A DNA stretch of 64,000 nucleotides, from positions 1 through 64,000 of the forward strand of contig JAKSPB010000013.1 of the NCBI GenBank assembly GCA_024405215.1, written 5' to 3'. The position numbers and the translations under genes were made by a program. Positions 37,567 through 55,931 of this stretch are shown here, piece by piece (position 1 is the first letter of the stretch; each line of letters starts with the position of its first letter). The notes under the pieces are model-generated. The model was given only the letters and a program-made list of their open reading frames with translations. It ran no database searches and was not told the origin of the DNA. The DNA is from Lentisphaeria bacterium (GTDB lineage: Bacteria; Verrucomicrobiota; Lentisphaeria; Oligosphaerales; Oligosphaeraceae).

Positions 37567-40455
37567 ATGCGTAAAGTCCTGTTCCTTCTAAGTTGCCTAG
37601 CCATCACCCTCTTCGCCGGCCCCAAGGCGCAATGGATCGCCTTCAACGAATCCTCAAGCAGCGGCAATGGCGAGACACGCTACTTCCGATATGAGTTCGA
37701 CATTCCCGACAAGGAAATCCAGTCCGCCGTCGTCTGCTTCCTTTTCGGAGGGAGCGGCACATTTTTCTATGTGAATGGCAGCAGCGCCGAAGGCAAAGGC
37801 ACGCCGGCGGACATGTATGAAGGCCGGACCTCCACCCAGCCCAAAAAGCAATTCGAGGTCAAGACCCTCCTGCTGCCTGGGAAAAAGAACGCAGTCGGCA
37901 CCAACGTGGCCAATTCCTCCTCATCGCAGTGCGGCTTCATCGCCCATCTGCTGATCACCTTCAAGGACGGCACCACCCAGGAAGTCTTTTCCGACACGAA
38001 CTGGCTGGCCTCCAAGGCCCCCGGTTCGACCGACTACCACGACTTCGCCAAGGCAGGTTTCACCGGCGGGACCTGGAGCAAGGCAAAGTCCCTCGGCGAC
38101 TGCACATCCTCCCAATGGGAAAATTACGACATGCTCCCCTTGTATGCCGGCGATGACGCGGCAACGGAGATCGCCCGCAGGAATGGCGAGTCGAAATGGA
38201 AAGAGATGGTGCAGGAAAGACTCGCCAGCGCCCCCCGGGAGGAGGCGAAGATCATCTACCAACACGGCGGCGCCTTCTTCCAGATTGGCGAAAACGAGCA
38301 AGGCGAACCCAACATCTACCGTCCTGTCCTCTACAATTGCAACGACGCGTGGAAATCCATCAATTCCCAGCCGTTCAGGGAGCAGGTCAGGAACTTCGTC
38401 GAATCGGACATCAAGCTGATCACGGTGAGCTTCGAGGCGAAGGACTTCTGGACAGGACCCGGGAAATACGACTACGACGTAGTGGACAATGCCCTGAGGG
38501 ACTTCTACGAACTCACCTGCATTGATGAAAACGGCTTCAGCGAGGAAGGCTTCAAGACACGCTTCCTCGTATCCCTGAATTTCAGCCATGGCCCCACCTG
38601 GTGGAACTCGGCATATCCCGAGGAAACGGCTAAATACGCCAGAGTGGACGTCAAGACCTCCCGGGGAAGCACCATTGACACCTTCCCCAACAACGAGAGC
38701 GGCGACTGCATCGGGAATTATCCCATTCACTCCTACGCTTCAGAACAGTGGATCAACGACTCGACCACCACCATCTCGAAATTCGTCGAGCACATCGAAA
38801 AGAGCATCTACGGAAAGCATGTCTTCGGATACCGTTTCGGCGAGGGCGTCTATTCGGAGTGGCACTACTTCGGCATGTCCGGCGCCATGCCGGATGTCAG
38901 CGCCCCCATGGTGAAGTTCTTCCGCAGCTTCCTCCGCGAGAAATACGGCGATGACGTCGCAAGGCTCCGTGCCGCCTGGAACCAGCCGAAAGCGACCTTC
39001 GAGAATGCCCTGATCCCGCCCGTGGAGATCCGTCTGAAGTATCTCGGAAACAGCCTTCGCGATCCCCGGAACGCCTGGAGCATCGACTACCTGGAATGCC
39101 TCGCCTTCGCCCAGAAAAGCCTTCTGATGGCCATGAACAAGGCAGCCAAGGACGCCTGCCAAAACCGCTGCCTGGTGGGCAACTACTGCGGATACTTCTA
39201 CGGAATGGGATATTCGGCGGAGGCCTGGCATGTCCTGAATGACGAGATCCTGGCCTCCGAGTACGTGGACTTCCAGATCGCCCCGTGCTGCTACGCCAGC
39301 GAGTTCCGCAGCGTGGGAGGATCCCAGCTGGCGCGCGGCCTGTCGGGCACCTACCGCCTCCACAACAAGGCCTGCATCATGGAGGCGGACAGCCGCACGC
39401 ACCTGGCCAACAAGGGAAGCAAGTTCGCCAACACCGTCCAGGAAAGCCTCGCCACCCTCTCCCGCGACCTGGCCCAGGCCGCCGGATACGGCTGCGCGTA
39501 CTGGTATTACGACTTCGGAAACGTCTGGTACAACTGCCCGGAAATCTTCGACTTCTTCCACAAGATCGCCGATGTCTACAATGCCATCACGGACTTCAAC
39601 TCCACGGCGGAAGTCGCCATCATCGGAGACTTCGAAAGCGCCACCTACCACGCCATCCAGGACTACAGCGGCGGACTGCCGACCTATGTCGCCACCAGCA
39701 ACCAGACCCTGGAATTGAACAAGGCCGGCGTGGTCTTCGACTCCTATTCCTTCGCCGACATCGACAATCCCGCCCTGCAGAAATACAAGATGTTCATCTT
39801 CCCGCAGCTCTTCTACATGACACCGGAAAAGCAGGCAAAGCTGGACGCAATCAAGAAGTCCGGAAAGACACTGGTCTTCCTGAATGCAGCCGGATGGCTT
39901 ACCCCGGACGGCCCCTCCGACGACTCCGTCAGGCAGACCATCGGCATGGACGTGGAAGTCAAAGAAGATGCGGCCGATCTGGAAACAAGACTCATCGACG
40001 GGGACAACAGAGGCACCACGATGAGCAATTCCGGAACGGTTTATCCCGTGCTGAATGTGACGGACGCGAACGCGACCGTCCTGGGCACTGTCACATTGAA
40101 GAAAGAAAGGACCAAGGCCAGCTCCTACGCGGTAAAGGAGGATGTGGATGGCGAAGGCTGGACCTCCTACGTGTGCGGCGCACCTTTCATCACGGCAGCG
40201 GAAATTCGCAGAATCGCAACAGCCGCAGGCGTCCATTTCTTCTGCGACAGCACCAGCGGCATCGTCTACGCCAACAGCTCCATGATCTCTTTCCATACGG
40301 GGGCGCCAGGAACGTACACCCTGAATGCGAAGTCCCCCGTGAAGTGGAAGATGGTCTATCCGGCGCAGGAGCCAAGCTTCTCCGCCACCCGGCAAGCCTC
40401 GCACACCTTCACCGCCGACAAGGCGGACACCTACATCTTCGTGATCGAACCATAA
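37567..40455 (+). CDS. Secreted GH42-like putative glycoside hydrolase (copy 2)
   Basis: The start at 37567 (MRKVLFLLSCLAITLFAG) is chosen because AGGAG lies eight bases before it and it restores the signal peptide; the longer open frame covers only the intergenic gap. The 962-residue protein parallels copy 1 over its whole length, with Glu431 in GEGVYSEW and Glu606 in CIMEADSRTHL as the likely catalytic pair. The N-terminal domain is more divergent than the catalytic part. Both copies have the same downstream partner, so this looks like a duplicated cassette that has diverged, perhaps in substrate. Confidence 0.7.
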   Translation: MRKVLFLLSCLAITLFAGPKAQWIAFNESSSSGNGETRYFRYEFDIPDKEIQSAVVCFLFGGSGTFFYVNGSSAEGKGTPADMYEGRTSTQPKKQFEVKTLLLPGKKNAVGTNVANSSSSQCGFIAHLLITFKDGTTQEVFSDTNWLASKAPGSTDYHDFAKAGFTGGTWSKAKSLGDCTSSQWENYDMLPLYAGDDAATEIARRNGESKWKEMVQERLASAPREEAKIIYQHGGAFFQIGENEQGEPNIYRPVLYNCNDAWKSINSQPFREQVRNFVESDIKLITVSFEAKDFWTGPGKYDYDVVDNALRDFYELTCIDENGFSEEGFKTRFLVSLNFSHGPTWWNSAYPEETAKYARVDVKTSRGSTIDTFPNNESGDCIGNYPIHSYASEQWINDSTTTISKFVEHIEKSIYGKHVFGYRFGEGVYSEWHYFGMSGAMPDVSAPMVKFFRSFLREKYGDDVARLRAAWNQPKATFENALIPPVEIRLKYLGNSLRDPRNAWSIDYLECLAFAQKSLLMAMNKAAKDACQNRCLVGNYCGYFYGMGYSAEAWHVLNDEILASEYVDFQIAPCCYASEFRSVGGSQLARGLSGTYRLHNKACIMEADSRTHLANKGSKFANTVQESLATLSRDLAQAAGYGCAYWYYDFGNVWYNCPEIFDFFHKIADVYNAITDFNSTAEVAIIGDFESATYHAIQDYSGGLPTYVATSNQTLELNKAGVVFDSYSFADIDNPALQKYKMFIFPQLFYMTPEKQAKLDAIKKSGKTLVFLNAAGWLTPDGPSDDSVRQTIGMDVEVKEDAADLETRLIDGDNRGTTMSNSGTVYPVLNVTDANATVLGTVTLKKERTKASSYAVKEDVDGEGWTSYVCGAPFITAAEIRRIATAAGVHFFCDSTSGIVYANSSMISFHTGAPGTYTLNAKSPVKWKMVYPAQEPSFSATRQASHTFTADKADTYIFVIEP

Positions 40456-42044: not shown

Positions 42045-42108
42045 GTTTTACCGCTCAAAACGGATATATCGCGGTTCCCCCTTGAAAGGCAACTGCCGCT
42101 CATCAGCC

Positions 42109-42385
42109 GCGCATCCTTGCGCGGCTCGGGTGTGCCCAACCGCCCAACCGCCAAGCAGCCAAGCCTCCTGCCAAATTCCCTATTTCCTGCCTGCGCCCGC
42201 GCATCCTTGCGCGGGTCAAGTGCGCCCAACCGCCTATCCGCCGCACCCAAACACCCACCACCCCCCCTGCCAAATTCCCTATTTCCTGCCCGCGCCCGCG
42301 CATCCTTGCGCGGGTCGGGTACGCCTAACCGCCTAACCGCCTAACTGCCAAGCCGCCTATCCGCCAAGCCCAAAATAATCTTGTG
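42109..42385. repeat. Three-copy tandem repeat (90-99 bases per unit) at the left edge of the island
   Basis: Units start at 42109, 42199 and 42298 with GCGCATCCTTGCGCGG. This is part of a 7-bp-stem hairpin, complete as CCCGCGC-ATCCTT-GCGCGGG in units 2 and 3. Each unit continues with C-rich CCGCC/AACCGCC text. The first two end in CTGCCAAATTCCCTATTTCC. No gene is credible here. With the hairpin at 41998 this fills most of the 512-base gap before the first island gene. Confidence 0.8.
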
Positions 42386-42446: not shown

Positions 42447-43805
42447 ATGAAATCTCCTGCTTTAATCAAGGTAAAATGTCCCACTTGCCACAGAAAACAA
42501 ACTATAGATTCTACTGTGACAGGACAACCTATCATTTGCAATCATTGTAATGAGATCATTCCAGTATCTCCAGAAAATATTATTAATTCAAATGAAAAAT
42601 TCTATTTTGCTCTATATGCAAGTTTGATTATTTCTATTATTTCCGCATTCTGTTTTGGAGTGTCTTTGCAGAAATACTATGTTTGGGAAGCAAACTATGA
42701 GAATAAGCAAATCCTGATAAACAACTTAACTAAAACGGAAGAGGAATTGACTGCAAAAAAGCAAATTCTGGAACTTGATTTGCAAAAATTGGAGGAAGAG
42801 GTTTCTAAGCGTAAAGACTATCTTCTGACCACGACAGAAGCAAAACAACAGACTGACGCCTTACTTGAGCAAGAAAAAACCTTAACGAAGAAAATTGAGG
42901 AACTTCAAAAAAACAATTCAGCCCTAGAAGTTTCCTATGCTTCTCAATCCGCCTCCTTGGAAGGACTCAAAGCGCAAATCATCCAGTCCACGGATTCTCT
43001 TAATTCCATTCTCAAGCAACTTGAAGCCTCACAAAAGCAATTGCAAGAAACCAATGCTTCCCTTGCAGTTGCGGCAGAAACAAATGATAAACTTCAAACT
43101 ATAAAAGCGGAAATTGACCAACGACAGAAAGAATATAGAAAACTCCAGGATGATTTACAAGAAGTTCTTCAACGAAAAGGAGATGCACTTGGAACAATTT
43201 CTGGTTTAGTTTCTCAAGTGTCGATGTATCAAAAAGATTTGGATGATAAAGTTTTTGCAAATTCAAAAATGGAAAAACAAGTGGAGATTCTGCAACAACA
43301 GATCACCACTTTGGAAGGGCAAAAAAAAGAATTATCTACTGTAACTGTGAATCTTACTTCTTTCCAAACTGAATTAGAAAAATTGAAACAAGAAGTCGCA
43401 ACTGTTCAGGAGACTTTGCAGAAGAAAAAAACTGACACTGATATTCTTGTAGCCAAAGAACAAGAACTGACATCGTCCGTTCAAGAACTGGAAACTACAT
43501 TGGCGGCTTTAAAGCAATCCTACGCTGAAAGCAAGTCGAGTAATGATCTTAATCTCGCGATCTTGCAGAATCAGCAACAGAAAATCATGGAAAACAATTC
43601 CACGATTAGTTCTTTGCAGGAACAATCGGAGAACTTGCAGAAGAAAGTTATGGATTTGCTTTTGCAAGAAGAAAAAACAAAGGGAGAACTAGCACTTCTG
43701 GAAAACCAGAAGCAGAATCTTCAAATTCGTATTAACACAATGAATAGCGAAAACGCTAATCAAGTTTCCGGGAAAGCTCAAAAGAACGTCCAGGAGGAGA
43801 AATAA
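42447..43805 (+). CDS. Island gene 1: zinc-ribbon, transmembrane, coiled-coil protein
   Basis: I recognise no named family for the whole protein. The 452 residues begin with a zinc-ribbon (KCPTCHRKQT and ICNHCNEII; four Cys in two CxxC pairs, residues 10-35). One transmembrane helix follows (YASLIISIISAFCFGVSL, about 53-70). The remaining 380 residues are nearly continuous heptad coiled coil rich in Gln, Glu, Leu and Lys. It probably sits in the membrane with the coiled coil in the cytoplasm. Its last base overlaps the ATG of gene 2, whose own N-terminus has the same membrane and coiled-coil plan, so the two may form a coiled-coil pair. Confidence 0.75.
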   Translation: MKSPALIKVKCPTCHRKQTIDSTVTGQPIICNHCNEIIPVSPENIINSNEKFYFALYASLIISIISAFCFGVSLQKYYVWEANYENKQILINNLTKTEEELTAKKQILELDLQKLEEEVSKRKDYLLTTTEAKQQTDALLEQEKTLTKKIEELQKNNSALEVSYASQSASLEGLKAQIIQSTDSLNSILKQLEASQKQLQETNASLAVAAETNDKLQTIKAEIDQRQKEYRKLQDDLQEVLQRKGDALGTISGLVSQVSMYQKDLDDKVFANSKMEKQVEILQQQITTLEGQKKELSTVTVNLTSFQTELEKLKQEVATVQETLQKKKTDTDILVAKEQELTSSVQELETTLAALKQSYAESKSSNDLNLAILQNQQQKIMENNSTISSLQEQSENLQKKVMDLLLQEEKTKGELALLENQKQNLQIRINTMNSENANQVSGKAQKNVQEEK

Positions 43806-45766
43806 TGGCTCTCATTCTATATCTAGTCGGTTTGACCAGTGTTGTTATACTCGTTTCTCTGGCAATTTATGCTGCGAATCTCTACCGCAGCGCTCTGGAT
43901 TTGAATCCCATCAAAGAAACACGAGACAGTTTGAAGCACCAGATTGCGGAAGCGCAACGAACCTTGACGGAGACCGAAACAAAAGTCAACGGTCTGCACG
44001 AGGAATATGCCAAGGCACGCCATGCCATCCAGAAAGCTGAAGAGGCGCGTTTATTTTTGCAGGAGAACAGCAATAAGGTTAGTGAACTAAAAGCTCAAAT
44101 TGAAAGAGCAAAAGAAGATTTCCGAACAGCCAATGATCAAAAAGAAAAACGGCAGGAGGAATTGAACGTTCTTATTCAAGAAGTTCGCGCTGTAGGAGAA
44201 AAACTGGAGTCAAGTAGGACTGAGCTGGCGGCTTTAGTTGCGCAAAAGAGCAGCTTGGATGAAAATTGCAAGCACTTGCAACAACAAGGCGAGGCACTAA
44301 AACAGCACCTCGCCATATTGAACAAGGACCTTAATGAAAAGAGTGCACAAGTTTCTCAACTTGAAGCACAATTACGCGGGTTGCAGGAACAATGCAATTC
44401 CCAGAAAGCTCAATGCTCTCGAGACGAAGCCAGGCACCAGCGCCTGCAAGCAGAATATGAGAGCTTGTCAAAGAAAAAAGATGATCTTGAAAATGAAATC
44501 ACCCGCAAGAAGGCAGAAAGCAGCACTCTTGAAGTGCAACTAGCAGAAGAGCAAGCCAAGGCAGATACCAAGGGCATTCGCTGGGAGGACCTGAAACGTC
44601 CGTGGCAGTCCAAAGAACTTCCCAATGTATCTGTCAGTGTTCTTGGCAAGGAATCAACTTGGCTGGAAGAGCTTGGAAATAATCTAAAAGATCACGGTTT
44701 GCTCTTTTCCGAACGAACACTTCGTGCGTTCCATACCAGCTTAAAGGTGATGGACATTTCGCCGCTTGTCATCTTGGCTGGTGTCTCCGGCACAGGCAAG
44801 AGCCTCCTGCCACGTCTTTATGCTCATGCGTTAGGGATGAATTTTCTGCAAGTGGCGATCCAACCGCGGTGGGACAGCCCTCAAGACATGCTTGGATTCT
44901 ACAACTATATGGAAAGACGTTTCAAGGCCACAGAGCTTTCCCGCCTTTTGTGGCAATATGACATCTACAACAATGACGAGGCAAAGAAAAAATATAGCAA
45001 ATCTGGCGTTCCCATGAATTTGGTTCTTTTGGATGAAATGAACTTGGCCAAGGTGGAATACTATTTTAGCGATTTCCTCAGTAAACTTGAAGTGCGCCGT
45101 GGCATAGACCCAAAGGATGGCAAGAAACGACGCGCCGCGGAAATTGAAATTGAATGCGGTGCCCAGGCAAGCAATGTTCCTCCCATCTATCTTTTCCCAA
45201 ACTACAACACCTTCTTTGTCGGGACAATGAATGAAGATGAGAGCACCCAGACCCTTTCCGACAAAGTTATGGATCGAGCCAATGTCCTACGTTTTGGACG
45301 CCCGGCGAAATTGGATCTAAAACCAGATATTCAAGGTTTCCTTGCAAAATATCAAGAAGCAAACAACTGTCTGCCCAATTCCAAGACCAGCATTTGGCCG
45401 CCGTCAGATACGCCTTTTCAAAACATCCAAGATGCCTTGCTGAATGTCATGGATCCGATCAATGAGTGCTTGGCAAAAGTTGGTCGTCCATTTGCGCACC
45501 GCGTTTGGCAAGCGATGGAGTCCTATGTTTCCAATTATCCCATACATTCTGAAGAAGGTCAACGCAATGCTATTGCTGACCAGCTGGAGATGAAAATTCT
45601 TCCCAAACTGAATGGATTGGAAAAGGAGCGTCCTGAAGTTCGTGAAGCACTAAAGGCTATCCAAGGGGAAATGGATAAGCTCAAGGATGAAGAACTGTCC
45701 CAAGTCTTCACTGATGCGCAAAAAGATGAATCCATCTTCTTCCAATGGCATGGTGTCAGACGATAA
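43805..45766 (+). CDS. Island gene 2: membrane-anchored coiled-coil McrB-like AAA+ ATPase
   Basis: The 653-residue protein has an N-terminal membrane helix (VGLTSVVILVSLAIYAANLY, about 8-27), then a coiled coil to about residue 250 (EIAEAQ- and QLEAQLRGLQEQ-type heptads). The C-terminal AAA+ domain has Walker A GVSGTGKS at 326-333 and Walker B LVLLDEMNLAK (Asp410/Glu411). The NTFFVGTMNEDEST ... VMDRANVLRF segment is typical of McrB-type motors. McrB proteins hydrolyse nucleotide to drive a nuclease partner; GTP versus ATP cannot be told here. McrB normally carries a DNA- or RNA-binding front domain, and here a membrane anchor and coiled coil take that place. Confidence 0.85.
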   Translation: MALILYLVGLTSVVILVSLAIYAANLYRSALDLNPIKETRDSLKHQIAEAQRTLTETETKVNGLHEEYAKARHAIQKAEEARLFLQENSNKVSELKAQIERAKEDFRTANDQKEKRQEELNVLIQEVRAVGEKLESSRTELAALVAQKSSLDENCKHLQQQGEALKQHLAILNKDLNEKSAQVSQLEAQLRGLQEQCNSQKAQCSRDEARHQRLQAEYESLSKKKDDLENEITRKKAESSTLEVQLAEEQAKADTKGIRWEDLKRPWQSKELPNVSVSVLGKESTWLEELGNNLKDHGLLFSERTLRAFHTSLKVMDISPLVILAGVSGTGKSLLPRLYAHALGMNFLQVAIQPRWDSPQDMLGFYNYMERRFKATELSRLLWQYDIYNNDEAKKKYSKSGVPMNLVLLDEMNLAKVEYYFSDFLSKLEVRRGIDPKDGKKRRAAEIEIECGAQASNVPPIYLFPNYNTFFVGTMNEDESTQTLSDKVMDRANVLRFGRPAKLDLKPDIQGFLAKYQEANNCLPNSKTSIWPPSDTPFQNIQDALLNVMDPINECLAKVGRPFAHRVWQAMESYVSNYPIHSEEGQRNAIADQLEMKILPKLNGLEKERPEVREALKAIQGEMDKLKDEELSQVFTDAQKDESIFFQWHGVRR

Positions 45767-45772
45767 TCTGCC

Positions 45773-47104
45773 ATGACAGAAGGCAATAAACTACAATTCA
45801 GCATTTGGGACGAAGAGACGTTCTCCAGCGAAAACTTTTCTGACACGCGACGCCTGAAGGAATATCTGCATCGTCAGCGTGAGGAAGACTTTGCAGAAGA
45901 AGCCGCTCGTTTTGACTTCATTGCGCAGATTGTCGCTGAACTTTCACAATTGCGGTTTGAGGCGGAAGACGAGCAAAAACATCAGCCCAACAAGGTAAAA
46001 AATCGTCGCAAGGAATTGCCTGTCAGTTGGCAAAGCATTGCGCATGTGCTCTCTGATTTGGATTCCGACGAGCCTGAACAACGCCTCATCACCCGCATTG
46101 CCCAAGAGCATATCGGCATTGTGGAAAGTCTAGCGCGACACATGCGACATGTCTTGCATAGAGAACGTAAAATGGTTTCTCTGGCCAATGCGCAACAACT
46201 AGACACTCAATGCCTACGTTGGCTGACACGACAACCTGGCAGAACGGCGGAAGAAAAAGCGGGCCACTCTCAACATATCCTTGCTGTTGTCAGAGAAGAG
46301 AACTTGAATACCTTGGAAAATCGCGTTCTCAAGGATTTCTTCCGTTATTGTCAGCGTGCGACCTGGGAATATCAAAAGCAATTCCGAGCCAAATACAGTC
46401 AGTCCCAACGCCTGCGTGATGTCAATCGATTCCATGGACTGTGCCAAAGTTATCTGACTGCGCCTGAAATGGAACAACTCCCCTTGCTTTCCGGAATGCC
46501 GGTTCCCAATTACGTTCTCCAGTATGATGCGCGATACTCTCAAATGTGGGAATGGTATCGCCAACTTGTCCAGCAAATGCGAATGGTGGAATTTGTCTGG
46601 CCTTATCGGCATAAACTTTTTACAGAATATGTCTTATTCCGGTTGTTGTGTTTATTCCGTTTCACGTTTCAGGACCAATGGACACCTTTTTATGCCAATG
46701 AGTTATGGCTCCATGCCGCTCCTGAAAAAGGATTATTCTTTCATTGTCCATTTTGGTTCAATTTGTTCAGAGCCAAAGAAACTCCACAACTGGAATTACT
46801 AAAATTCCAGGCAAATTCGTTGACCGCCACGCCCAGTTTTGTTGACTTTGCTCTCCAATTCTCCCGTCAGGAATTGTTACGGGGTGGGATCCGATTCATT
46901 CCCGTGGAAGCCCCAGACATCATTCACTTACCAAGCCTGGGTCCTAGGAGCATCTACTTCGTATATTCGGAGAATCCCACAACTCAAATTGTCCCCGATT
47001 CCACTTGTCACATCGTCCGTCTTACAACTTTTGCCACATTGCCAGAAGAAATGAAGCAAGGACTCAAAGACGTACTAAAAGATTACCACCACTATGCTCA
47101 TTGA
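45773..47104 (+). CDS. Island gene 3: DUF2357/McrC-like protein with apparently degenerate nuclease
   Basis: The 443-residue protein contains a DUF2357-like core (about 135-200): LRWLTRQPGRTAEEKAG and NTLENRVLKDFFRYC. DUF2357 proteins pair with McrB-like ATPases as McrC-type partners and normally end in a PD-(D/E)XK nuclease. Here the region after EFVWPYRHKLFTEYVLFRLL (about 275-295) has the expected lead-in helix. I cannot find an acidic pair and E/D-x-K triad: the likely positions read TPSFVDFALQF and SIYFVYSENP. It may be a structural subunit. It starts six bases after gene 2 and overlaps gene 4 by 11 bases. Family placement is by motif recall. Confidence 0.65.
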   Translation: MTEGNKLQFSIWDEETFSSENFSDTRRLKEYLHRQREEDFAEEAARFDFIAQIVAELSQLRFEAEDEQKHQPNKVKNRRKELPVSWQSIAHVLSDLDSDEPEQRLITRIAQEHIGIVESLARHMRHVLHRERKMVSLANAQQLDTQCLRWLTRQPGRTAEEKAGHSQHILAVVREENLNTLENRVLKDFFRYCQRATWEYQKQFRAKYSQSQRLRDVNRFHGLCQSYLTAPEMEQLPLLSGMPVPNYVLQYDARYSQMWEWYRQLVQQMRMVEFVWPYRHKLFTEYVLFRLLCLFRFTFQDQWTPFYANELWLHAAPEKGLFFHCPFWFNLFRAKETPQLELLKFQANSLTATPSFVDFALQFSRQELLRGGIRFIPVEAPDIIHLPSLGPRSIYFVYSENPTTQIVPDSTCHIVRLTTFATLPEEMKQGLKDVLKDYHHYAH

Positions 47105-49502
47105 TATCTACGATCTATTTGGCGCTCAAACCTGGTATCGATTCACAGAGACCTCTTCCTCTCAGGTGAGACTTCTTCAAGAGCAGCAGTTCCCTGACTT
47201 GTTGATTTATCCCCGGCGGCTGCAAAACAAGTGTGCTTATCTGCAAGACTGTCTAAATCCCATTCTAGAGGATTTCATTGACGGCAACGGCCGTCTTGAT
47301 TATGGGAACTCTTTTTTTCTAGCCGATATCCTGCAAGCAATAGAAGAGCACCAAGCAACCTTTTCTTCTGGGCACCAAACGCCAATCCAAGCGTTGTCCG
47401 ACTTCTTCGCTCAAGTGCAAGGCCAAGTTCTGCATCAACAAAGTGAAGCAGACTGGAACATTATTGTTGTTCCTGATCACTACGACGCAGAAGCGCAGGA
47501 AATCCTTCTGCAGCAATGCCACTTGTCCAGAGTGAAGACACTTCTGCTGTGGCGTTCTGTAGCTGCTTGCATCGGACAAGAAAATCAACTGGTCCTTCAG
47601 GGGGCAACCGAGGATATGACTATTGTCATTGTCGATTATCGCAACACCGGAACAAACATTTCACGTCTGCGTTTGAAGAACGACAGAGGAAGGCTGGTTC
47701 CACAAAGACGCTCCTATTCCATGCACCGTAAAGAGGATTTTACGGAAGCAAATTCACAAAAACGCAGGAAACCAAGGTTCGATGTTCTTGATGCAGAAGA
47801 AGAAAAATTCGCGCGTCATCTATATGGTCTTCGCCAGGAATGTCTTCCCATATTCAGTTCCGGAAAATGGCAAATGAAGAAGACGCAATTTACCTTTCCG
47901 ACATTTGATTTATCTGAGAATTTTCTTCCCCAAAATGATTTTGTGACCGTGGCAGATTCGTGTCCAATCACCCAATCCGGTTGGAAAAAACACAGAATTC
48001 TCCAAAACTTTTCAGACGAATGTGACTATATTGCCTTGGGGGCCGCAAGATTCGCCATTAGAAATGCAAATGGTCTGCCAACCTATTTTGATGGCAGAGA
48101 AGCACTTTGGATTATTGTTCAGGACCAATTCAAAGAAACCATTGGACGAGAAAAACTGATAGAAGAAAACGAATTTTGCCGTGGTGGAGAAAAATACGTT
48201 GGTTCCCCTATTGTTGACAAATTCTATGTGGAAGGAGGAAGCAATATTGAATTTCTTTTACAGTCAGGAAATGCCTATACCAATCCTCTGAAGAAACTTA
48301 TCCAGACGTTTGAGTTTTCCATTGGCCAACGGCAGAATCTAACTTTGTATCCCAGCATGACAGTCGGTCAAGGCATGGCGCAAGTTCGTGTGACAGGAGA
48401 ACCTTTGCTTAAGGAAGAAGTCAAGCTGGATTTCTTGAAAATGGCTCCGACTTCCGAAACTCTAGTGTCTTTAAACCAGCGTCTCAAGCGCAGTTTTCCT
48501 GCTGATATTCCACAAGTTTGCGCCAATGATCGATTATGGAGTAAAATAGTAGATAAGGTAAATTCTTATCTTGAAAACTATATCCTCCCCAGTGGAGGTT
48601 GGTTTGCACAAACGGAATTTCCCTTCCGGAAAGATTCAGACCTTATCAAAAGAATGCAACGGGAGAATGTCTTTGGTACAGATCCCCTTTGCCGTGTACC
48701 TGCATCGCTCTCCCCCCGCGCCCAATACAAATTGTATGCAAAGTTGGCCAAGGATTACAACTATTATAAATATGTATGCCAAACACCTGATGACGCATTT
48801 CACAACGATCGTCAGGCAAAACGTTTATTGAATCAAATCATACGCTTGATCGCCTGGACATACCAATCGGACAACCCACTCTTTAACAATATAAAAGATG
48901 AAATTTTTGCTCATCTTTATGAAGCAAGTGAAAATTCCAAATTTTCGCTTCTTCCCCAAGAATATACCTTCTGTGCTCATTTCTCCAATGCTTCTCATGA
49001 CTTTCAGTTATATACGCAGGCAATCATTAATTTGCAAGAATCAAGAGGAACAGATAGAATCAACAATTGGCTTCGAGGATATTACGCACTTCTTTCTCTA
49101 AATAACAATGCTTTGGAGAATATTTCCACTGAACAATGTCTTGAAATTTCAGAATATCTGTATGAAATCGTCATAAAAAACATTACACCAGTATGCCATT
49201 CAACAGTCATAACAAATGCTTTGCGAGTTATGCTGTTTCTCCTTCGTCGCAGAAGATATGATCGCACATTTCTTGCAAAGGGATCAGAGAGATGTCAAGC
49301 GTGGCTTAATTGTCTAAACGCCATTACATTACCACCCGAAAACATGGATATTTTATCCTTTGCACATCATCCATGCCTGCCACAATCTCTTCTTGACTGT
49401 TGCAAAAGTCTAAAAGATTTTTTGAACAACGAAGGGACCTTGGAAGGCATTCCAAAAATTCTAGAAGATGCGGATACTGACAATGACTCGGAAAGGGAGT
49501 AA
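47094..49502 (+). CDS. Island gene 4: large protein with an apparent Hsp70/actin-like nucleotide-binding domain
   Basis: No clear full-length family is recognised for the 802 residues. Residues about 120-200 look like part of an Hsp70/actin-like fold. IIVVPDHYDAEAQEILLQQC followed by VKTLLLWRSVAACIG matches the Hsp70 pattern VPAYF...RQA...E-PTAAALAYG. TIVIVDYRNTGTNISRLRL fits the phosphate-2 strand (V-DIGGGT-D-S). A beta-rich middle and a helical C-terminus (about 530-780) follow. It could be a nucleotide-dependent chaperone or sensor. It overlaps gene 3 by 11 bases and ends three bases before gene 5, so it is plainly part of the operon. The fold call is inference. Confidence 0.5.
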   Translation: MLIDIYDLFGAQTWYRFTETSSSQVRLLQEQQFPDLLIYPRRLQNKCAYLQDCLNPILEDFIDGNGRLDYGNSFFLADILQAIEEHQATFSSGHQTPIQALSDFFAQVQGQVLHQQSEADWNIIVVPDHYDAEAQEILLQQCHLSRVKTLLLWRSVAACIGQENQLVLQGATEDMTIVIVDYRNTGTNISRLRLKNDRGRLVPQRRSYSMHRKEDFTEANSQKRRKPRFDVLDAEEEKFARHLYGLRQECLPIFSSGKWQMKKTQFTFPTFDLSENFLPQNDFVTVADSCPITQSGWKKHRILQNFSDECDYIALGAARFAIRNANGLPTYFDGREALWIIVQDQFKETIGREKLIEENEFCRGGEKYVGSPIVDKFYVEGGSNIEFLLQSGNAYTNPLKKLIQTFEFSIGQRQNLTLYPSMTVGQGMAQVRVTGEPLLKEEVKLDFLKMAPTSETLVSLNQRLKRSFPADIPQVCANDRLWSKIVDKVNSYLENYILPSGGWFAQTEFPFRKDSDLIKRMQRENVFGTDPLCRVPASLSPRAQYKLYAKLAKDYNYYKYVCQTPDDAFHNDRQAKRLLNQIIRLIAWTYQSDNPLFNNIKDEIFAHLYEASENSKFSLLPQEYTFCAHFSNASHDFQLYTQAIINLQESRGTDRINNWLRGYYALLSLNNNALENISTEQCLEISEYLYEIVIKNITPVCHSTVITNALRVMLFLLRRRRYDRTFLAKGSERCQAWLNCLNAITLPPENMDILSFAHHPCLPQSLLDCCKSLKDFLNNEGTLEGIPKILEDADTDNDSERE

Positions 49503-49504
49503 AA

Positions 49505-52500
49505 ATGAAAACACCTTATCATACCTATCTTAGCATCTGGACATTGACTTCTGATGGAACGAATAGTGTCCCCATTGCTCATGAAACACTCCTTGCCTCC
49601 ATTGCCGCGAAAAATCAACAAGACCCGCCTCAGGAAATTCTTGATCGACTAATCACGGAAGGACTTGTGGAGAATGATGTATTTGGTAGATATTTTCTTT
49701 CCGCTCAGGGACTAGCGTTTTGGAAACTCACTCCGGCAGAGGAACAATCAAATCGTCCTGTGGTGTCAACTGATGCGGAATGGGATGATTTTCGAAAATA
49801 TCTTGCCTACTATATTGATTGCATTACAACTCAAGAAAAACAAGCAGAATATCTCTTTGCAGAACAACAAAAAAAATCTTTTCTTCAAGCTCACCTCCCC
49901 ATTGGCTGGCTTAGACTACTAGGAGAAAATGACAAACGTGAAATTACAATAACTGTTTCTAGATCGGATGCCTCTGCCAAAGATTTTATTTTGGGAAGTA
50001 AAATAGACAATGAAGAAATCTATATCGGCTATCCATTGGCACTGCTGAGAACTAAACGAGGAGCACTTTGTTATTCTCCCATGGCCCTTTTGCCGGTAAC
50101 GGTGACAAATTCTTCCTATTCCACAATAACCATGCAGCTGCATTATGAAGACTGTGAACTGAATCAGTCATGGTTTGAATACAATGTTCCAAGAGAACGT
50201 CAAAGGCCTTTGCGAAATCAACTACATCCCTCAAATGAGAATAGCCCTTATTCCGGACTATTTGACTTATACCGTTCTCTTCCTTTTTTTGAATCCGAAC
50301 TCGGACCGTCTTATTCAAATATTTTTGATCCCAATTGTCTTGATATTTCTTTGCCTGAAAATAATTCCCAAAAAGCTTGCAATGCTGCTATTCTTTTCGT
50401 TGGCAAATCCCTTCGCTATTCAAAAACACTGAAAAGCGAGATGGAATACATCCTCAAGAACGCTACGGACGAAGAATTAGACAATACGGCTCTAGCATAC
50501 GTGTTTCGGAAGCATCCCCTTCTGGATGAAAGCTCTATGCAACATTATTTGCCTCTTCCGTTCATTGATAGCAATCATGAACAGCAACTTGCCGTTGAAA
50601 ACGCCTTAAACTATCCACTGTCCAAGATCACTGGTCCTCCTGGAACAGGGAAATCACAAGTAGCAGTCAACATCATCGCAAATCTTCAATATCTAGGACG
50701 AAGCACTTTGTTCACAAGCAAGAATCGCAAGGCTGTTCTAGCCATTGCAGAACGAAGTGCTCAAGTTCTTGGAAATGATAACGTTCCTTTAGTCAATTTC
50801 TGTACTGGGCATGACGGAAATATCACGAATCCATGGTTTAAGCAAAATCTGGAAATGACCATAGCAGATTTCAAATCCAAAGAAAATCTCTTGGATCCTA
50901 CGACAATCTGCGATGTTGAAAACGCATGCAGAGAATGGGAAGATGCAGAAATGTATCTCTCCGGGCGTAATGAGCTTTTACGCCAAACGAGTCGAAATAC
51001 AAAAAGCATTGCTAGTCTCACAAAACGACTTTGTTCTCTTCTTCATGTCAAAACAGACATATGCCTGAAAGCACTACAAATTAACAAGTTAATGAAATAT
51101 GGAGAAAACATCTCTAAAACTTCTTTTGATGACATTACATGGAGACATCCGGTTCAAAAAATCATCTGGCATCTCTATGGAAAAAAACTTCATGAAATAG
51201 CTCTGAAAAACTTGAAAATAGAATTTCCGGAACTGTTCCAGAGACTCCACGATCACCGTCAACTTCGTCATGTCATATTTGAAGCTTTATCCTTGTGGCG
51301 CGAACTTCAAAATGAACTTCAGAAAGCAGAGGAATTGAAAAAGAACGCGAAAAACGCACCTGACCTTTCCGCGCTTGTAACTGAATTTGGAAAGACCATG
51401 GCAGATTTGCATAAAGCCATAAAACCAGCCTTGCTTTTTAAGCGTATGCAGATTGTTCTGGAACATGCAGATGATATTGAGTTTTTGAAATTCCTGAAAA
51501 GCGTTATGGATATTTTCAAGAATATGTCCTATCCCACTTGTATGGAGACATTGACGGATGAGCAAATAGAAACTTCCAAAGCCGGATGCAAAGCATTTTA
51601 TGCCCTCTATCCCTCCTGGGCGGTCACGCTTCAATCTGTTTCCAAAGCATCGCCTTGCTTTCCGGCAATATTTGATACCGTCATTATTGACGAAGCATCC
51701 CAGTGCGACATTCCGCCGATTATTCCCGCTTTGTATCGTGCACGTCGCCTTGTGGTCATCGGAGACCCTAATCAATTTCCGCCTGTCATCAACTTGTCCC
51801 CTCAACGTCATGACTATTTGAAAAAAATGCGTCACAAGTTGAATTTCATCAACGATCAATGTTTCGACTATATGGATTTTAATGCATATAGTTGTGTGAC
51901 GATCCCTCCCACAATGTTGCGCGAACATTTTCGTTGCGATGAAGATATCATCGCTTATTGCAACAATGAATACTATTCCAAACAACTCATTGTGCGCACA
52001 GATCGCAATCGCTTGAATTTCCCCAAAAACATGGGATATCATTCGGGCGTGGAGTGGTATGATGTGCCCAACTCGCAAGAAGCGGAAATCAAACTGGCGG
52101 TCCATCACGTTGAAATGCTTCGCCAAAATGGCTTTGAAGGATCCATCGGCGTCATAACTCCATTCCATGAAATTGTTAGTCGTCTGAAACAAGCTCTCTA
52201 TCAAAAACTTCCCGAAGAGGATATCAATACAGTCAATGGCTTTCAAGGTGGAGAACGCGATCTAATCATCTTCGTGTTGGCATATACACCAAACTCCCCC
52301 AAAGGACAACAGTGGTATGCAACTGCCCCGGAAAATCGTTATCTTTTCAACGTTGCTGTCAGCCGTGCACGTGCCTGCCTTTTGATCATAGGAGACAGAG
52401 AATACTGCCGGAAATCGCCTTGTCATCATTTGCAATCACTGGCTGAGTTGCCGCATCAACGCCCTGCGAATCAATTCAAGCCATTCGACTCCATTTGGGA

Positions 52501-52801
52501 AGAGCGCTTCTATGATGCTCTTGTTTCTGCTGGCCTCAAACCTCAACCGCAATATCCTGTAGCCGGTCGTCGTCTGGACTTGGGTTTACTAGAAGGAGAC
52601 TTCAAGTTGGATGTCGAAGTAGATGGCGTCCAATATCACACCAACGCAAATGGAGAACGCAACACCAGCGATCTTTTCCGAGATTTGCAACTAGAAAGTC
52701 TGGGATGGCATGTTCAGCGGTTTTGGGTTTATGAGCTCAATAATAACATGGAGGCTTGCGTGGAAAAGGTGAAACGCATAATCCATGAGCATCACACTTA
52801 A
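49505..52801 (+). CDS. Island gene 5: UPF1-like SF1 helicase with C-terminal Vsr/MTES_1575-like endonuclease
   Basis: The 1098-residue protein starts after a good GGGAG ribosome site. The SF1 motifs are Walker A GPPGTGKS at 377-384, motif II VIIDEASQ (Asp729/Glu730), motif III VVIGDPNQFPP, motif V NTVNGFQGGERDLI and motif VI NVAVSRARACLLI, the UPF1/AAA_11-AAA_12 pattern. Between Walker A and motif II lies a long insertion (about 400-720). The last 100 residues are a Vsr-like endonuclease: GRRLDLGLL (Asp1025), VEVDGVQYH (Glu1038, Asp1040), and LESLGWHVQRFW. UPF1-like helicases act on DNA or RNA 5'-to-3'. This domain probably supplies the nuclease activity of the island. Confidence 0.88.
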   Translation: MKTPYHTYLSIWTLTSDGTNSVPIAHETLLASIAAKNQQDPPQEILDRLITEGLVENDVFGRYFLSAQGLAFWKLTPAEEQSNRPVVSTDAEWDDFRKYLAYYIDCITTQEKQAEYLFAEQQKKSFLQAHLPIGWLRLLGENDKREITITVSRSDASAKDFILGSKIDNEEIYIGYPLALLRTKRGALCYSPMALLPVTVTNSSYSTITMQLHYEDCELNQSWFEYNVPRERQRPLRNQLHPSNENSPYSGLFDLYRSLPFFESELGPSYSNIFDPNCLDISLPENNSQKACNAAILFVGKSLRYSKTLKSEMEYILKNATDEELDNTALAYVFRKHPLLDESSMQHYLPLPFIDSNHEQQLAVENALNYPLSKITGPPGTGKSQVAVNIIANLQYLGRSTLFTSKNRKAVLAIAERSAQVLGNDNVPLVNFCTGHDGNITNPWFKQNLEMTIADFKSKENLLDPTTICDVENACREWEDAEMYLSGRNELLRQTSRNTKSIASLTKRLCSLLHVKTDICLKALQINKLMKYGENISKTSFDDITWRHPVQKIIWHLYGKKLHEIALKNLKIEFPELFQRLHDHRQLRHVIFEALSLWRELQNELQKAEELKKNAKNAPDLSALVTEFGKTMADLHKAIKPALLFKRMQIVLEHADDIEFLKFLKSVMDIFKNMSYPTCMETLTDEQIETSKAGCKAFYALYPSWAVTLQSVSKASPCFPAIFDTVIIDEASQCDIPPIIPALYRARRLVVIGDPNQFPPVINLSPQRHDYLKKMRHKLNFINDQCFDYMDFNAYSCVTIPPTMLREHFRCDEDIIAYCNNEYYSKQLIVRTDRNRLNFPKNMGYHSGVEWYDVPNSQEAEIKLAVHHVEMLRQNGFEGSIGVITPFHEIVSRLKQALYQKLPEEDINTVNGFQGGERDLIIFVLAYTPNSPKGQQWYATAPENRYLFNVAVSRARACLLIIGDREYCRKSPCHHLQSLAELPHQRPANQFKPFDSIWEERFYDALVSAGLKPQPQYPVAGRRLDLGLLEGDFKLDVEVDGVQYHTNANGERNTSDLFRDLQLESLGWHVQRFWVYELNNNMEACVEKVKRIIHEHHT

Positions 52802-53115
52802 ATCATTACCCATTCAAAGGCTGCTGCATGCGCCTTCTCGTCCTGTGCCCAGAGCGCAAGCTACGGAAAAAAATAAGCTCTCTTCTTTCCATATTACTGC
52901 ACCTCAAAATCCAAATTATGAAGCGGGGCGCTTGCAGCGGGGCGGGGAATTTGGGAAGGCGATGGTTCTGCGGGACGGGAACCGCAATCGCCGACCCCAA
53001 ACAGCCCCCAAGCCCCTGCCAAATTCCCTATTTCTGTGAGTTTTGCAAAATAGTTTCACAGCCGTCCCATAATTTCCTGAACGGTACGATTTTCGAGCAC
53101 AATTGAGCACAAAGC
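52802..53115. other. Right-edge non-coding segment of the island with a flanking repeat
   Basis: This gap contains CAAAGGCTGCTGCATGCGCC at 52816, resembling half of the 41998 hairpin. It then has a hairpin GGCGATGGTTC ... GAACCGCAATCGCC (52957-52990). The stretch 52989-53034 is nearly the same as 42237-42287 at the left edge, ending with CTGCCAAATTCCCTATTTC. No gene is convincing. Confidence 0.6.
52989..53034 (+). repeat. Direct repeat matching the left-edge tandem unit
   Basis: CGCC(G)ACCCCAAACA then C-rich text and CCTGCCAAATTCCCTATTTC matches 42237-42287 in the same orientation with a few differences. The two copies bracket the five-gene island. Confidence 0.75.
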
Positions 53116-53167: not shown

Positions 53168-53391
53168 TTAAGACAGCCAGTCAAAAGTGAGCTGACAGGC
53201 AGTCTCAGGGCTGCCCCTGATGACCCTCTTCTTCCGTTCCCTGACGGTATCGCAGCATTCAATGATGCTGCTCAGCCTGAAAAAGTTCCACAGAACGGCA
53301 CGAACCAAAGTGAAGAGCCTGCTGAACGGGTGCTTCCACTTGTTGTACCAGGCGACAAAGCGCAGCAGTAGATACGTCAGCAAGGCCGTCG
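53168..53391 (-). pseudogene. IS4-family transposase remnant (C-terminal part)
   Basis: Translating the minus strand gives TALLTYLLLRFVAWYNKWKH, then FSRLFTLVRAVLWNFFRL, ending FDWLS at 53168. This is the C-terminal pattern of IS4-type DDE transposases (from memory). Only about 75 residues remain, with no catalytic DDE positions and no complementary end sequence recognised, so it is an inert fragment. Its upstream end runs directly into the truncated surface-protein fragment, implying that the insertion or a later deletion removed the 5' part of that gene. Confidence 0.65.
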
Positions 53392-53677
53392 CAAGTCCTG
53401 ACGAAAGGCGCAGATGGAAGTTATTCCTGGCAGAATGGAGGAAGCCATGGATCCGACGTCCTGACGCTCCGGCTGGAGGAAGGCTGGAATCTGGTGGCCA
53501 TGCCAGGCAATGTGGTCCTTGACGAAAGCGAGGCGGCCATCCTTTTCAACGTGGAAATTTACACCTACGACAAGACGGAAAAGGTCTACCTGGCTTCAGA
53601 TGGCCTTGAACCTCTGGCCAGCTACTGGAATGCGCGCCCCCCAGCCCTGTACCATCCACTTCAAGACGGCAAAGTGA
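53389..53677 (+). pseudogene. Truncated, frameshifted copy of the surface-fibre C-terminal module
   Basis: The sequence encodes QVLTKGADGSYSWQ, LRLEEGWNLVAMPGN and ASDGLEPLASYW, closely matching the last 95 residues of the gene at 35062-37356. The frame is intact until about 53629, where one extra base shifts it. Correcting it restores MRAPQPCTIHFKTAK and a stop at 53677. The homologous 5' part of the gene is absent and is replaced by the transposase fragment. Confidence 0.85.
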
Positions 53678-53895: not shown

Positions 53896-53932
53896 AAAAG
53901 GTCCGGCGATCAGAAGACCGCCGGACCTTTTC
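53896..53932. terminator. Bidirectional intrinsic terminator
   Basis: GGTCCGGCG and CGCCGGACC form a 9-bp stem with AAAA before and TTTT after. It is placed just past the minus-strand phosphoribosyltransferase stop and would end that transcript and any plus-strand one. Confidence 0.8.
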
Positions 53933-53948
53933 GTGGAATCGTTCGGGA

Positions 53949-54521
53949 CTAGAATTTTCCAGGGAGCGGGATGTTGTCTAATGCGACGAGCGGGATTCCC
54001 TGGCATTCCGTGCGCATGCCACCCTCGGTTAGTGCGCAAGCGATGACAGAGATTTTGACGTCAATCTTCTCTGCCAGCTTGAGGACTGCGGAGATGGTTC
54101 CGCCAGTGGAGACCACGTCATCCAGGAAACAGAGTTTCTTGCCTTGGAAAGCCAGGTATTTCTCCTTGCCAATCCAGAGCTCCTGCTTATTTTGAGTCGT
54201 AATGGACTTGACTTCGACTCCAACCGGGTCAATCATGAAGGACTTCTTGCTTTTCCTCAATTCCAGATAGGCATCATGTCCCATCAGGGTGCTCAAGGCC
54301 TGGCAGAGTCCGCAAGACTTTGTCTGGACGGTGAGGATTCCATCGAATTCGTAGTCCTTCAGGCGTTTGGCCAGTTCTTTCGCCGCTGCGTTGTTCCACG
54401 CAGTCTGGCCGGTCATGTCGAAGGAATAGATGTGGAATCCGTCACCGATGTCAAGAAGCGGGATGGTAACGGGAAAATCCGGTCCCAGGTGGACGGTATA
54501 AGTATCGTTCCAGGTAGCCAT
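53949..54521 (-). CDS. Purine-type phosphoribosyltransferase
   Basis: The 190-residue protein has the type I phosphoribosyltransferase plan: ILTVQTKSCGLCQALSTLMG, then AYLELRKSKKSFM, VEVKSITTQNKQELWIG and the PRPP-binding loop LCFLDDVVSTGGTISAV (about 130-146). It salvages a nucleobase with PRPP to the nucleotide; adenine or xanthine/guanine is most likely, and the sequence does not decide which. It starts five bases after the permease stop, so uptake and salvage are coupled. A bidirectional terminator follows. Confidence 0.85.
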   Translation of the reverse strand: MATWNDTYTVHLGPDFPVTIPLLDIGDGFHIYSFDMTGQTAWNNAAAKELAKRLKDYEFDGILTVQTKSCGLCQALSTLMGHDAYLELRKSKKSFMIDPVGVEVKSITTQNKQELWIGKEKYLAFQGKKLCFLDDVVSTGGTISAVLKLAEKIDVKISVIACALTEGGMRTECQGIPLVALDNIPLPGKF

Positions 54522-54526
54522 TGTGA

Positions 54527-55666
54527 TTAAAGACCGATGTACATTCCGAAGTATCTGACGAGGACGCCGGCGACCATGCCCAGGAAGGGGTTCTTGGACC
54601 AGGCAGTGATGGCGAGAGCGATGAAACCGCAGGCACGCTTGTCGTCGTTCAGGATTCCGGTCAAATTGGGAATAAAGGTATAGAGGATGCCAATGACGAA
54701 GAGGAAGCCCGCGATGCTCTGAGCGGGGAGGTACTTACCGATACGTCCCACCACGCCCATGAGGATGAGGATGGCGGTGGCGAACATGAAGCAGATTCCG
54801 CAGGCAACGGGCCAGGGGGCGGCGGCGGTGCCGGAGATGATGGCCTCGATGGGTGGGCCGCCGAAGAGGGAGCTGGGAACGTCAGCCAAGGAGTTGATGA
54901 TGGAGAGATGGTCGAAGTTCTGGGTCGTGCCGGCGATGTTGGCGGTGATTCCGCCGAAGGAGATGTTGGCGCCGATGTTCAGCATGACCAGGGAGAGGGT
55001 TCCCAGGACGACAGTCAGGTTCATGGTGGGTTTCACCATCTTGAAATCGCTCCAGTAGGCTTTCTTCCAGAAACGCCATTCGGTACTGACTTCCAGGTTT
55101 TCACGGCCTTCCTCGACCATGTTCGCAATGTCCACGCGACGTTTCTGCAGGAAGAGGAAATCCAAGGTGGAGACAACGACAGAGACGAAGATGACCCACA
55201 CCAGTTTGTTGGGGCTGTTGCGGAAGATTACCAGAGCCGCGATGGCAGAAACGAGGGAGACCAGGGAGATGCGCTTTTCCTGGCCATACATGCTCCAGGA
55301 AACATCGGCCAGAATCAGGCCTACGCCAGCCATCATGCCGCCGACAATCGCCGCACCTGCGAAATCCGCGATTTTTGTGACGCCGCCGCAGAGGCCGAGG
55401 ATGACCATCAGCAATGCAGCAAGGAGGATGCTGCTGACATTGTTGCGGAGGTTCTTCTTTACACTGGCGACGGTGATGGTTTCCGCTTGACCGGAAATCG
55501 GGGTGACCGATCCAGTGAAGAGGTTGCCGAATGCGCCGACCAAATAGGCAAATCCCGAGGGTTTCAGGGCGAAGCCACGAGACTGGGCATACAACAACTG
55601 GGGCACGCCGTTGATGATGACGGCGATGATAGCCAGAATAAATGCCGACATGTTCTCAAAAGACAT
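54527..55666 (-). CDS. NCS2-like nucleobase permease
   Basis: The 379-residue membrane protein has about ten hydrophobic segments. Early GVPQLLYAQSRGFALKPSGF and FTGSVTPISGQAETITVASV resemble the NCS2 purine/xanthine-uracil permease family. The downstream phosphoribosyltransferase (five-base gap) supports purine-base uptake. The family resemblance is moderate, and a SulP-type carrier is an alternative. A hairpin followed by a T-tract lies in its leader (see 55697). Confidence 0.7.
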   Translation of the reverse strand: MSFENMSAFILAIIAVIINGVPQLLYAQSRGFALKPSGFAYLVGAFGNLFTGSVTPISGQAETITVASVKKNLRNNVSSILLAALLMVILGLCGGVTKIADFAGAAIVGGMMAGVGLILADVSWSMYGQEKRISLVSLVSAIAALVIFRNSPNKLVWVIFVSVVVSTLDFLFLQKRRVDIANMVEEGRENLEVSTEWRFWKKAYWSDFKMVKPTMNLTVVLGTLSLVMLNIGANISFGGITANIAGTTQNFDHLSIINSLADVPSSLFGGPPIEAIISGTAAAPWPVACGICFMFATAILILMGVVGRIGKYLPAQSIAGFLFVIGILYTFIPNLTGILNDDKRACGFIALAITAWSKNPFLGMVAGVLVRYFGMYIGL

Positions 55667-55931
55667 GGGGAATCCTTAAGGGTGAAGGTTAAAATGAAAA
55701 AAAAATCCAGCGAATTCTGGATTTGCCGTTAATATACTCTGGTGAAACGTGCCTGTTCAGAACGGCGGGCTTTTTTTCCACGAGATACGCGGAAAGGCAC
55801 AGAAAAAATGTTGCCGCAAAAAAGGGCGATTTGCCGCCGAATGTTCCCTTGACCAGCGTAAATTTTTCCCCCTGCGGAGTATATTATGAAGTTTCCTGCA
55901 ACTTTTCCATCCCCGTTATCAAAAACTCCTT
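55667..55931. other. Divergent leader between the permease and galK
   Basis: This 265-base gap holds the promoter regions for the two divergent genes, the hairpin at 55697-55723, and a GCCTGTTC...GGGC stretch followed by TTTTTTT near 55750-55777. I could not recognise a known purine riboswitch core. Confidence 0.45.
55697..55723 (-). terminator. Attenuator-like hairpin in the permease leader
   Basis: On the minus strand AATCCAG-AATTCG-CTGGATT is followed by a run of T. It lies 31 bases upstream of the permease start and no minus-strand gene precedes it, so it would act in the mRNA leader, possibly as conditional termination. Confidence 0.5.

Follow-up and report, generated by a model that had tools for sequence, protein, structure and literature searches.

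A Type III-B CoCoNuT operon in a Lentisphaeria bacterium, probably acquired horizontally and with a proposed tether to the inner membrane

Coiled-coil nuclease tandems (CoCoNuTs), which are related to Type IV restriction, were defined computationally (Bell et al. 2024, eLife 13:RP94800, PMC11090510). That paper describes five separate components for Type III-B: CnuA, in which a coiled coil is the sole recognisable domain; CnuB, a McrB-like GTPase that carries a coiled coil and in which the motif NxD, mostly with E or D next to it, stands in place of NxxD; CnuC, a DUF2357 protein whose PD-(D/E)xK nuclease is inactivated; CnuD, encoded by its own gene, in which Hsp70-like nucleotide- and substrate-binding domains (NBD, SBD) are combined with HEAT-like repeats; and CnuH, which joins a UPF1-like helicase, interrupted by a large insertion after Walker A, to an OB-fold, an N-terminal winged helix-turn-helix (wHTH) and a fused Vsr-like nuclease. 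TerY-P and HEPN are absent from this set, which is mainly reported from Alphaproteobacteria and for which RNA targeting through CnuD is predicted by analogy. We analyzed a 64-kb window of a Lentisphaeria bacterium (GenBank assembly GCA_024405215.1, contig JAKSPB010000013.1, positions 1 to 64,000); the operon at 42447-52801 of this window matches the published set gene by gene, and is thus a well-preserved Type III-B CoCoNuT of a kind already predicted computationally.

The operon consists of five complete open reading frames (ORFs) on the plus strand, arranged head to tail and tightly packed:

42447..43805, plus strand: CnuA, 452 amino acids; ORF with a transmembrane (TM) helix, CxxC pairs and coiled-coil-type matches
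43805..45766, plus strand: CnuB, 653 amino acids; ORF with AAA_5 and PDC-M26A matches, an NxD motif and a TM helix
45773..47104, plus strand: CnuC, 443 amino acids; ORF with DUF2357 and a McrC fold according to its structural model and Foldseek
47094..49502, plus strand: CnuD, 802 amino acids; ORF with an Hsp70 fold according to AlphaFold2 (AF2), Foldseek and profile matches
49505..52801, plus strand: CnuH, 1098 amino acids; ORF with AAA_12/AAA_11 and MTES_1575 matches and conserved nuclease residues

The first two genes overlap by 1 base and the third and fourth by 11, while gaps of 6 and 2 bases separate the second gene from the third and the fourth from the fifth. These coordinates bear out the single direction and near-zero spacing noted in a preliminary description of the locus, and Pfam and structure searches agree with its domain calls (McrB AAA+, DUF2357/McrC-like, UPF1-like helicase with Vsr-like nuclease). 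A gene occupies the CnuA position beside CnuB in 60 or more related loci. Promoter/terminator and Rfam searches of the locus returned nothing useful.

CnuA has a zinc ribbon (residues ~11-34, CxxC...CxxC), a TM helix (54-72) and a long coiled coil, with profile matches mainly to coiled-coil-type families. The zinc ribbon is rare, occurring in only two loci, that of the window and one from the same class (L035). In CnuB, an N-terminal TM helix (3-21) is followed by a coiled coil and the McrB-like GTPase (Pfam AAA_5, 1.9e-5); the coil (residues 25-260) was called from a coil-like stretch in composition and from SMC-type family matches. The GTPase motif reads TMNEDES, i.e., NxD and then E, and both NED and the Walker A sequence GxSGTGKS are invariant across 12 aligned CnuB sequences; the NTPase motifs of this protein are intact. 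CnuB also matches the PADLOC model PDC-M26A (1e-39), but a PDC-M26 identity was rejected: the Type III-A CnuB of Phytobacter matches the same model, which is therefore unspecific, and the other PDC-M26 components were unmatched.

CnuC matches DUF2357 (Pfam, 7e-8), and its AF2 model (predicted local distance difference test, pLDDT, 83; 36-sequence alignment) has E. coli McrC (of McrBC) as its best Foldseek match in the PDB, Thermococcus McrC being another of the top matches (probability 0.92-0.93, best E 0.0012). Reading by eye against this model located no PD-(D/E)xK catalytic motif at the expected strands, and the nuclease motif is, judging from the model, lost. CnuD is without a Pfam match; its model (pLDDT 82.5) predicts an NBD and a beta-SBD of Hsp70 type, with helical (HEAT-like) repeats after them. 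The best Foldseek matches of CnuD are DnaK/Hsp70 (probability 1.00, best E 5.5e-10), and mortalin and DnaK rank first in a search with the family profile (best E 0.0025), confirming the Hsp70-like fourth gene of the preliminary description. That gene had been considered part of a combination that could not be named, yet a separate Hsp70-like CnuD belongs to the Type III-B definition. The phosphate loops of CnuD are degenerate, with the GGGT of DnaK missing from the P-loops, as is likewise given for CnuD by Bell et al. (PMC11090510).

CnuH matches AAA_12 (8e-21), AAA_11 (1e-17) and, at the C-terminus, MTES_1575/DUF559 (Vsr-like, 3.1e-13) in Pfam, and its closest solved structures include SEN1, SMUBP-2 and UPF1. 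The helicase motifs are also intact, with Walker A at residue 377 and DEASQ at 729; the ~350 residues between them constitute a large insertion after Walker A. In the Vsr-like domain the residues E, Q, D, ExD, H, R and D are invariant or nearly so across 51 sequences, and this domain is apparently intact and the only recognisable active nuclease in the operon. The N-terminus has, by eye, a wHTH-like sequence pattern in many relatives.

The correspondence with Type III-B extends over all five components (coiled-coil CnuA, NxD CnuB, inactivated CnuC, separate CnuD, CnuH fused to Vsr), and the ORFs examined, in the operon and next to it, include neither a TerY-P triad nor a HEPN CnuE. The preliminary description had proposed an undescribed McrB/coiled-coil/helicase-nuclease defence system; its CoCoNuT character, acquisition and probable defensive role stand, but “undescribed” is ruled out since the published Type III-B definition covers the full set. 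The operon differs from that definition in its host, a member of the Lentisphaeria rather than of the Alphaproteobacteria, the main source of published reports, in the TM helix and zinc ribbon of CnuA and the TM helix of CnuB, which go beyond the published main-text description, and in its gene order, A-B-C-D-H as opposed to H-A-B-C-D in rhizobia. The rhizobial systems, on plasmids of Rhizobium leguminosarum (p2, L028), R. tropici (pRtrCIAT899b, L029) and Sinorhizobium meliloti GR4 (pRmeGR4d, L030), have the same five genes, TM helices on CnuA and CnuB, NxD and Vsr; they are without the zinc ribbon, and their CnuB is 41% identical to that of the window over its C-terminal part.

Other described systems fit less well. 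Type III-C, represented by Synechocystis PCC 6803 pSYSX (L031), shares an NxD McrB with a coil and a hydrophobic N-terminus, a DUF2357 protein and an Hsp70-like protein, but an annotated phospholipase D family protein stands in place of the Vsr fusion and a separate CnuA was not recognised; no match to phospholipase D (a Type III-C CnuE trait) was found in the operon, where Vsr is present. Type III-A (Phytobacter L032, Caballeronia L033, Photobacterium L126) shares the NxD McrB with a coil, DUF2357 and the UPF1-like helicase, and differs in its upstream TerY-P-type kinase/phosphatase genes, in one large DUF2357 protein that replaces separate C and D, in a separate gene at the CnuE position and in a CnuB without a TM helix. 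Type III-A is ruled out for the operon, in which C and D are separate and no HEPN or TerY-P gene occurs. CoCoPALM (Bell et al. 2024), considered for its NxD McrB fused to a TM and coiled-coil (FtsB-like) segment as in the operon’s CnuB, is marked by a linked signal-peptidase-family gene, and its carriage of CnuD or CnuH is not described; it was rejected as no signal-peptidase-family/pilus assembly gene is adjacent to the operon. Canonical McrBC is ruled out by NxD instead of NxxD and by a CnuC without the PD-(D/E)xK motif. The anti-phage proteins Hhe and ProA combine, like CnuH, a superfamily 1 helicase (AAA_11/AAA_12 type) with a following Vsr-like nuclease, but are very long single proteins; CnuH is weakly homologous to both and, scoring 136 of 1500 and 80 of 2000 bits, respectively, falls far below the curated cut-offs and is a non-member. 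This homology nevertheless supports a role in defence.

The membrane anchors are a conserved feature of Type III-B. Counting as TM helices only 19-residue segments with a mean hydropathy of at least 1.7, we found one in 74 of the 78 Type III-B CnuB proteins (median start, residue 10) and in 61 of the 66 CnuA proteins (median start 31), with three of the five CnuA failures scoring 1.61-1.69. The same measure gave 7/9 for CnuB of the cyanobacterial Type III-C and, among control proteins, 0/5 for Type III-A CnuB, 1/82 for CnuC, 0/68 for CnuD and 1/55 for CnuH. The preliminary description had regarded the anchors and the zinc-ribbon coil gene as unusual; this is true of the zinc ribbon, while the anchors are general to nearly all Type III-B systems examined. 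Bell et al. (PMC11090510) use “transmembrane” in their main text only of CoCoPALM, EssC-like ATPases and associated proteins and never of Type III-B or III-C, and the dual anchoring of CnuA and CnuB appears to be new. In 73/74 proteins lysine and arginine (K+R) are more frequent behind the CnuB helix than ahead of it, which places the CnuB GTPase, as predicted from sequence, in the cytosol. The Type III-C CnuB of L031 opens with two hydrophobic stretches, perhaps a membrane hairpin, as opposed to the single Type III-B helix.

The base composition of the operon is that of an acquired element. Its GC content is 0.428, compared to 0.582 for the remainder of the window, and the lowest value for any 10.4-kb stretch to the left of the operon is 0.562; GC at third codon positions (GC3) spans 0.34-0.47 across the operon's five genes, whereas flanking genes have 0.67-0.80. 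These figures substantiate the drop in base composition reported previously, and the flanking repeats reported with it are also real: the 2.98-Mb assembly contains exactly three copies of a 19-base sequence, CTGCCAAATTCCCTATTTC, all of them at the operon locus, on both sides of it:

42168..42186, plus strand: flanking direct repeat copy 1 (CTGCCAAATTCCCTATTTC), within a GC-rich tandem array
42267..42285, plus strand: flanking direct repeat copy 2 (CTGCCAAATTCCCTATTTC), upstream of the operon
53016..53034, plus strand: flanking direct repeat copy 3 (CTGCCAAATTCCCTATTTC), downstream of the operon

For a 27-base extension of the repeat, only the two upstream copies matched at ≤3 mismatches. The GC-rich intergenic tandem array (42069-42374, units of ~84-99 nt) lies just upstream of the operon and holds two of the three copies. 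A sister species retains the downstream phosphoribosyltransferase-permease pair (53896-55741, 84% DNA identity) but has other genes at the position of the operon, making the site non-syntenic; a clean empty site was sought in this species and not found, since nothing of the region aligns beyond that pair. The neighbours of the operon encode an FGE-sulfatase-like protein, a phosphoribosyltransferase, a permease and a galactokinase, and the operon is therefore a lone insertion rather than part of a defence island. An open stretch on the minus strand (53171-53545) resembles by eye the C-terminal end of a transposase and has a single weak, partial relative at another place in the genome; it was suspected to be an insertion sequence remnant, but is without a Pfam or NCBIfam match. 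The stretches at 37570-40455 and 30815-33682 belong to a large paralogous family with 34 matches in the host genome; the member at 37570-40455 has no Pfam match.

The distribution of the system among relatives is patchy. CnuB is present as a single copy in the host genome, CnuC was found in 12 of 387 other genomes of the phylum, and CnuD in none of a sample of 59 other genomes of relatives, in which its fast divergence could have caused it to be missed; a housekeeping operon was rejected on these counts. Type III-A CoCoNuTs occur in close relatives of the host, one in the same family (L045, genome G004) and one in the same class (L044, genome G055), and CoCoNuT types therefore come and go within this group. 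Viral spread was considered, but viral contigs, scanned twice, gave no match; a plasmid search was likewise empty with CnuD, and with CnuB and CnuC recovered rhizobial and cyanobacterial systems. A scan of GTDB genomes yielded 80 loci. By ORF and profile analysis, the set occurs, in either gene order, in Verrucomicrobiota, Lentisphaeria, Kiritimatiellae, Planctomycetota, Desulfobacterota, Myxococcota, and alpha- and gammaproteobacteria, and in single metagenome-assembled genomes (MAGs) assigned to Spirochaetaceae and Clostridia. Five loci from Kiritimatiellae and a Desulfobacteraceae MAG (L052, L053, L054, L055, L057) encode a fused CnuC-CnuD (977-1088 amino acids) along with a Vsr-fused helicase, the frame of which is broken in L053; such a III-A-like fusion with a III-B effector is possibly a further subtype. 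Outsized CnuB-like proteins (1443-1675 amino acids) are encoded in Phycisphaeraceae MAGs (L068, L072, L075).

A tree of CnuB GTPase domains, based on a quick search with Shimodaira-Hasegawa-like approximate likelihood ratio (SH-aLRT) support only and leaving out the reference sequences of Bell et al., recovers Type III-A and cyanobacterial Type III-C as one group each (both 99). The window CnuB lies within a group of 13 rows (98) in which every locus has either the order A-B-C-D-H(V) or a fusion of C and D, and its nearest rows are from Spirochaetaceae, Verrucomicrobiales, Clostridia, Desulfobacteraceae and Akkermansia MAGs. It thus groups with III-B-type loci, apart from III-A and III-C, although the tree leaves Type III-B as a whole without demonstrated monophyly. 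The mixing of phyla within the 13-row group fits horizontal transfer. On plasmids, Type III-B relatives stand beside Shedu and DUF262 genes or transposases. A group II intron is also among the neighbours of Type III-B loci, and other loci adjoin McrC, TOTE-type protein or restriction-subunit genes. In R. leguminosarum p2 (L028) the system adjoins a Shedu nuclease gene, with a DUF262 gene nearby.

The best explanation of these data, to which we assign a probability of about 75%, is that the operon encodes a Type III-B CoCoNuT that was gained by horizontal transfer and works as a membrane-tethered complex. CnuA and CnuB would each be held in the inner membrane by the predicted, conserved N-terminal helix; the CnuB GTPase ring would hang on its coiled coil in the cytosol and, by analogy with McrBC, be engaged by CnuC. 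Target recognition may be aided by CnuD, whose phosphate loops are degenerate, and by the CnuH N-terminal domain, and GTP hydrolysis would be coupled to the UPF1-like helicase of CnuH, whose fused Vsr-like nuclease would cut the target. More speculatively, the tether may place the machine at the point where phage nucleic acid enters, and CnuA might sense entry across the membrane. Candidate targets are RNA, as predicted by Bell et al., DNA, or an R-loop/single-stranded DNA intermediate; the only recognisable active nuclease belongs to the Vsr-like family, whose members are mostly DNA enzymes.

A role in defence is supported by the patchy presence of the system, its low GC and GC3, the locus-unique repeats, the non-syntenic site, the Hhe/ProA architecture, and the plasmid and transposase contexts of its relatives. 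The preliminary description had named a fixed housekeeping operon, the absence of a compositional shift and profile hits to a non-defence pathway as findings that would speak against it, and none of these applied: the distribution is patchy, the shift in GC and GC3 is real, and the profile hits are to defence families. Several points weigh against our interpretation. The TM calls come from a hydropathy window rather than from a trained predictor or experiment; the best match of the CnuH N-terminus in a profile search (E 0.16) was not significant, though several matches were wHTH regulators; the gene order is rotated relative to rhizobia; the neighbours of the operon in the window include no defence genes, and many of the genes next to related loci have ordinary metabolic functions. 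A limited literature search turned up no phage-challenge result for Type I-III CoCoNuTs, and defence is therefore an inference.

The orientation of CnuA bears on how such a complex would act. The K+R balance across its helix is even (20 vs. 25), but in 36/46 proteins the net charge ahead of the helix exceeds that behind it, at 43 of 50 loci cysteine is less dense in the coil of CnuA than in that of its operon partner CnuB (sign test, p = 1e-7, which is optimistic as the loci are related), and the zinc ribbon precedes the helix in the window and in L035, arguing for a cytosolic N-terminus and an outside C-terminus. Taken together, net charge, low cysteine and the zinc ribbon make us lean towards placing the CnuA coiled coil outside. 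These same features favour abortive infection, in which CnuA would be a TM sensor with a periplasmic coil and a phage-induced disturbance of the envelope would act through the GTPase to make CnuH degrade the nucleic acid of host and phage alike, so that the cell dies. We regard this as possible but doubtful: K+R alone is unbiased, the loci are non-independent, low cysteine may have other causes, a periplasmic CnuA coil would bar direct coil-coil contact with CnuB, and nothing bears directly on cell death. On a tentative view, which we hold short of even odds, Types III-B and III-C would both be inner-membrane machines, with CnuA a one-pass sensor with a periplasmic coil and CnuB a cytosolic ring, in which passage of phage nucleic acid through the envelope directly licenses CnuH; they would then sense entry rather than act as free cytosolic systems that target RNA. 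Zorya offers a comparison for entry-sensing defence.

A soluble complex, in which viral or otherwise aberrant RNA is the target of CnuD and CnuH and the hydrophobic N-termini serve only to pack coils or ring subunits, would agree with the published prediction of RNA targeting through CnuD (PMC11090510). We consider it improbable, as segments with a hydropathy of at least 1.7 in more than 90% of CnuA and CnuB proteins across phyla are hard to square with coil packing, as is the positive-inside pattern in 73/74 CnuB. The mostly DNA-directed activity generally known for Vsr-like nucleases also stands against a dedicated RNA-targeting system. A membrane-linked host function (envelope stress, or chromosome or RNA quality control) that happens to move horizontally is unlikely. 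In its favour are the metabolic genes adjoining close relatives and the stress role suggested by Bell et al. for pseudo-Type I-B (PMC11090510); against it stand the patchy occurrence of the system, its acquired base composition, the plasmids and transposons around related copies, the conservation of the nuclease site and the homology of CnuH to helicase-nucleases tested against phage.

These results widen the known range of Type III-B well beyond Alphaproteobacteria and bring out variants of the system with a rotated gene order, a fused CnuC-CnuD with Vsr, and a zinc-ribbon CnuA, while the rhizobial plasmids provide tractable copies. Membrane anchoring in Type III-B but not Type III-A shifts the mechanism to be examined towards localisation, topology and nucleic acid entering at the membrane. 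That two of the proteins are almost always tied to the membrane, as predicted from sequence, suggests that the system guards the site at which phage nucleic acid enters the cell.

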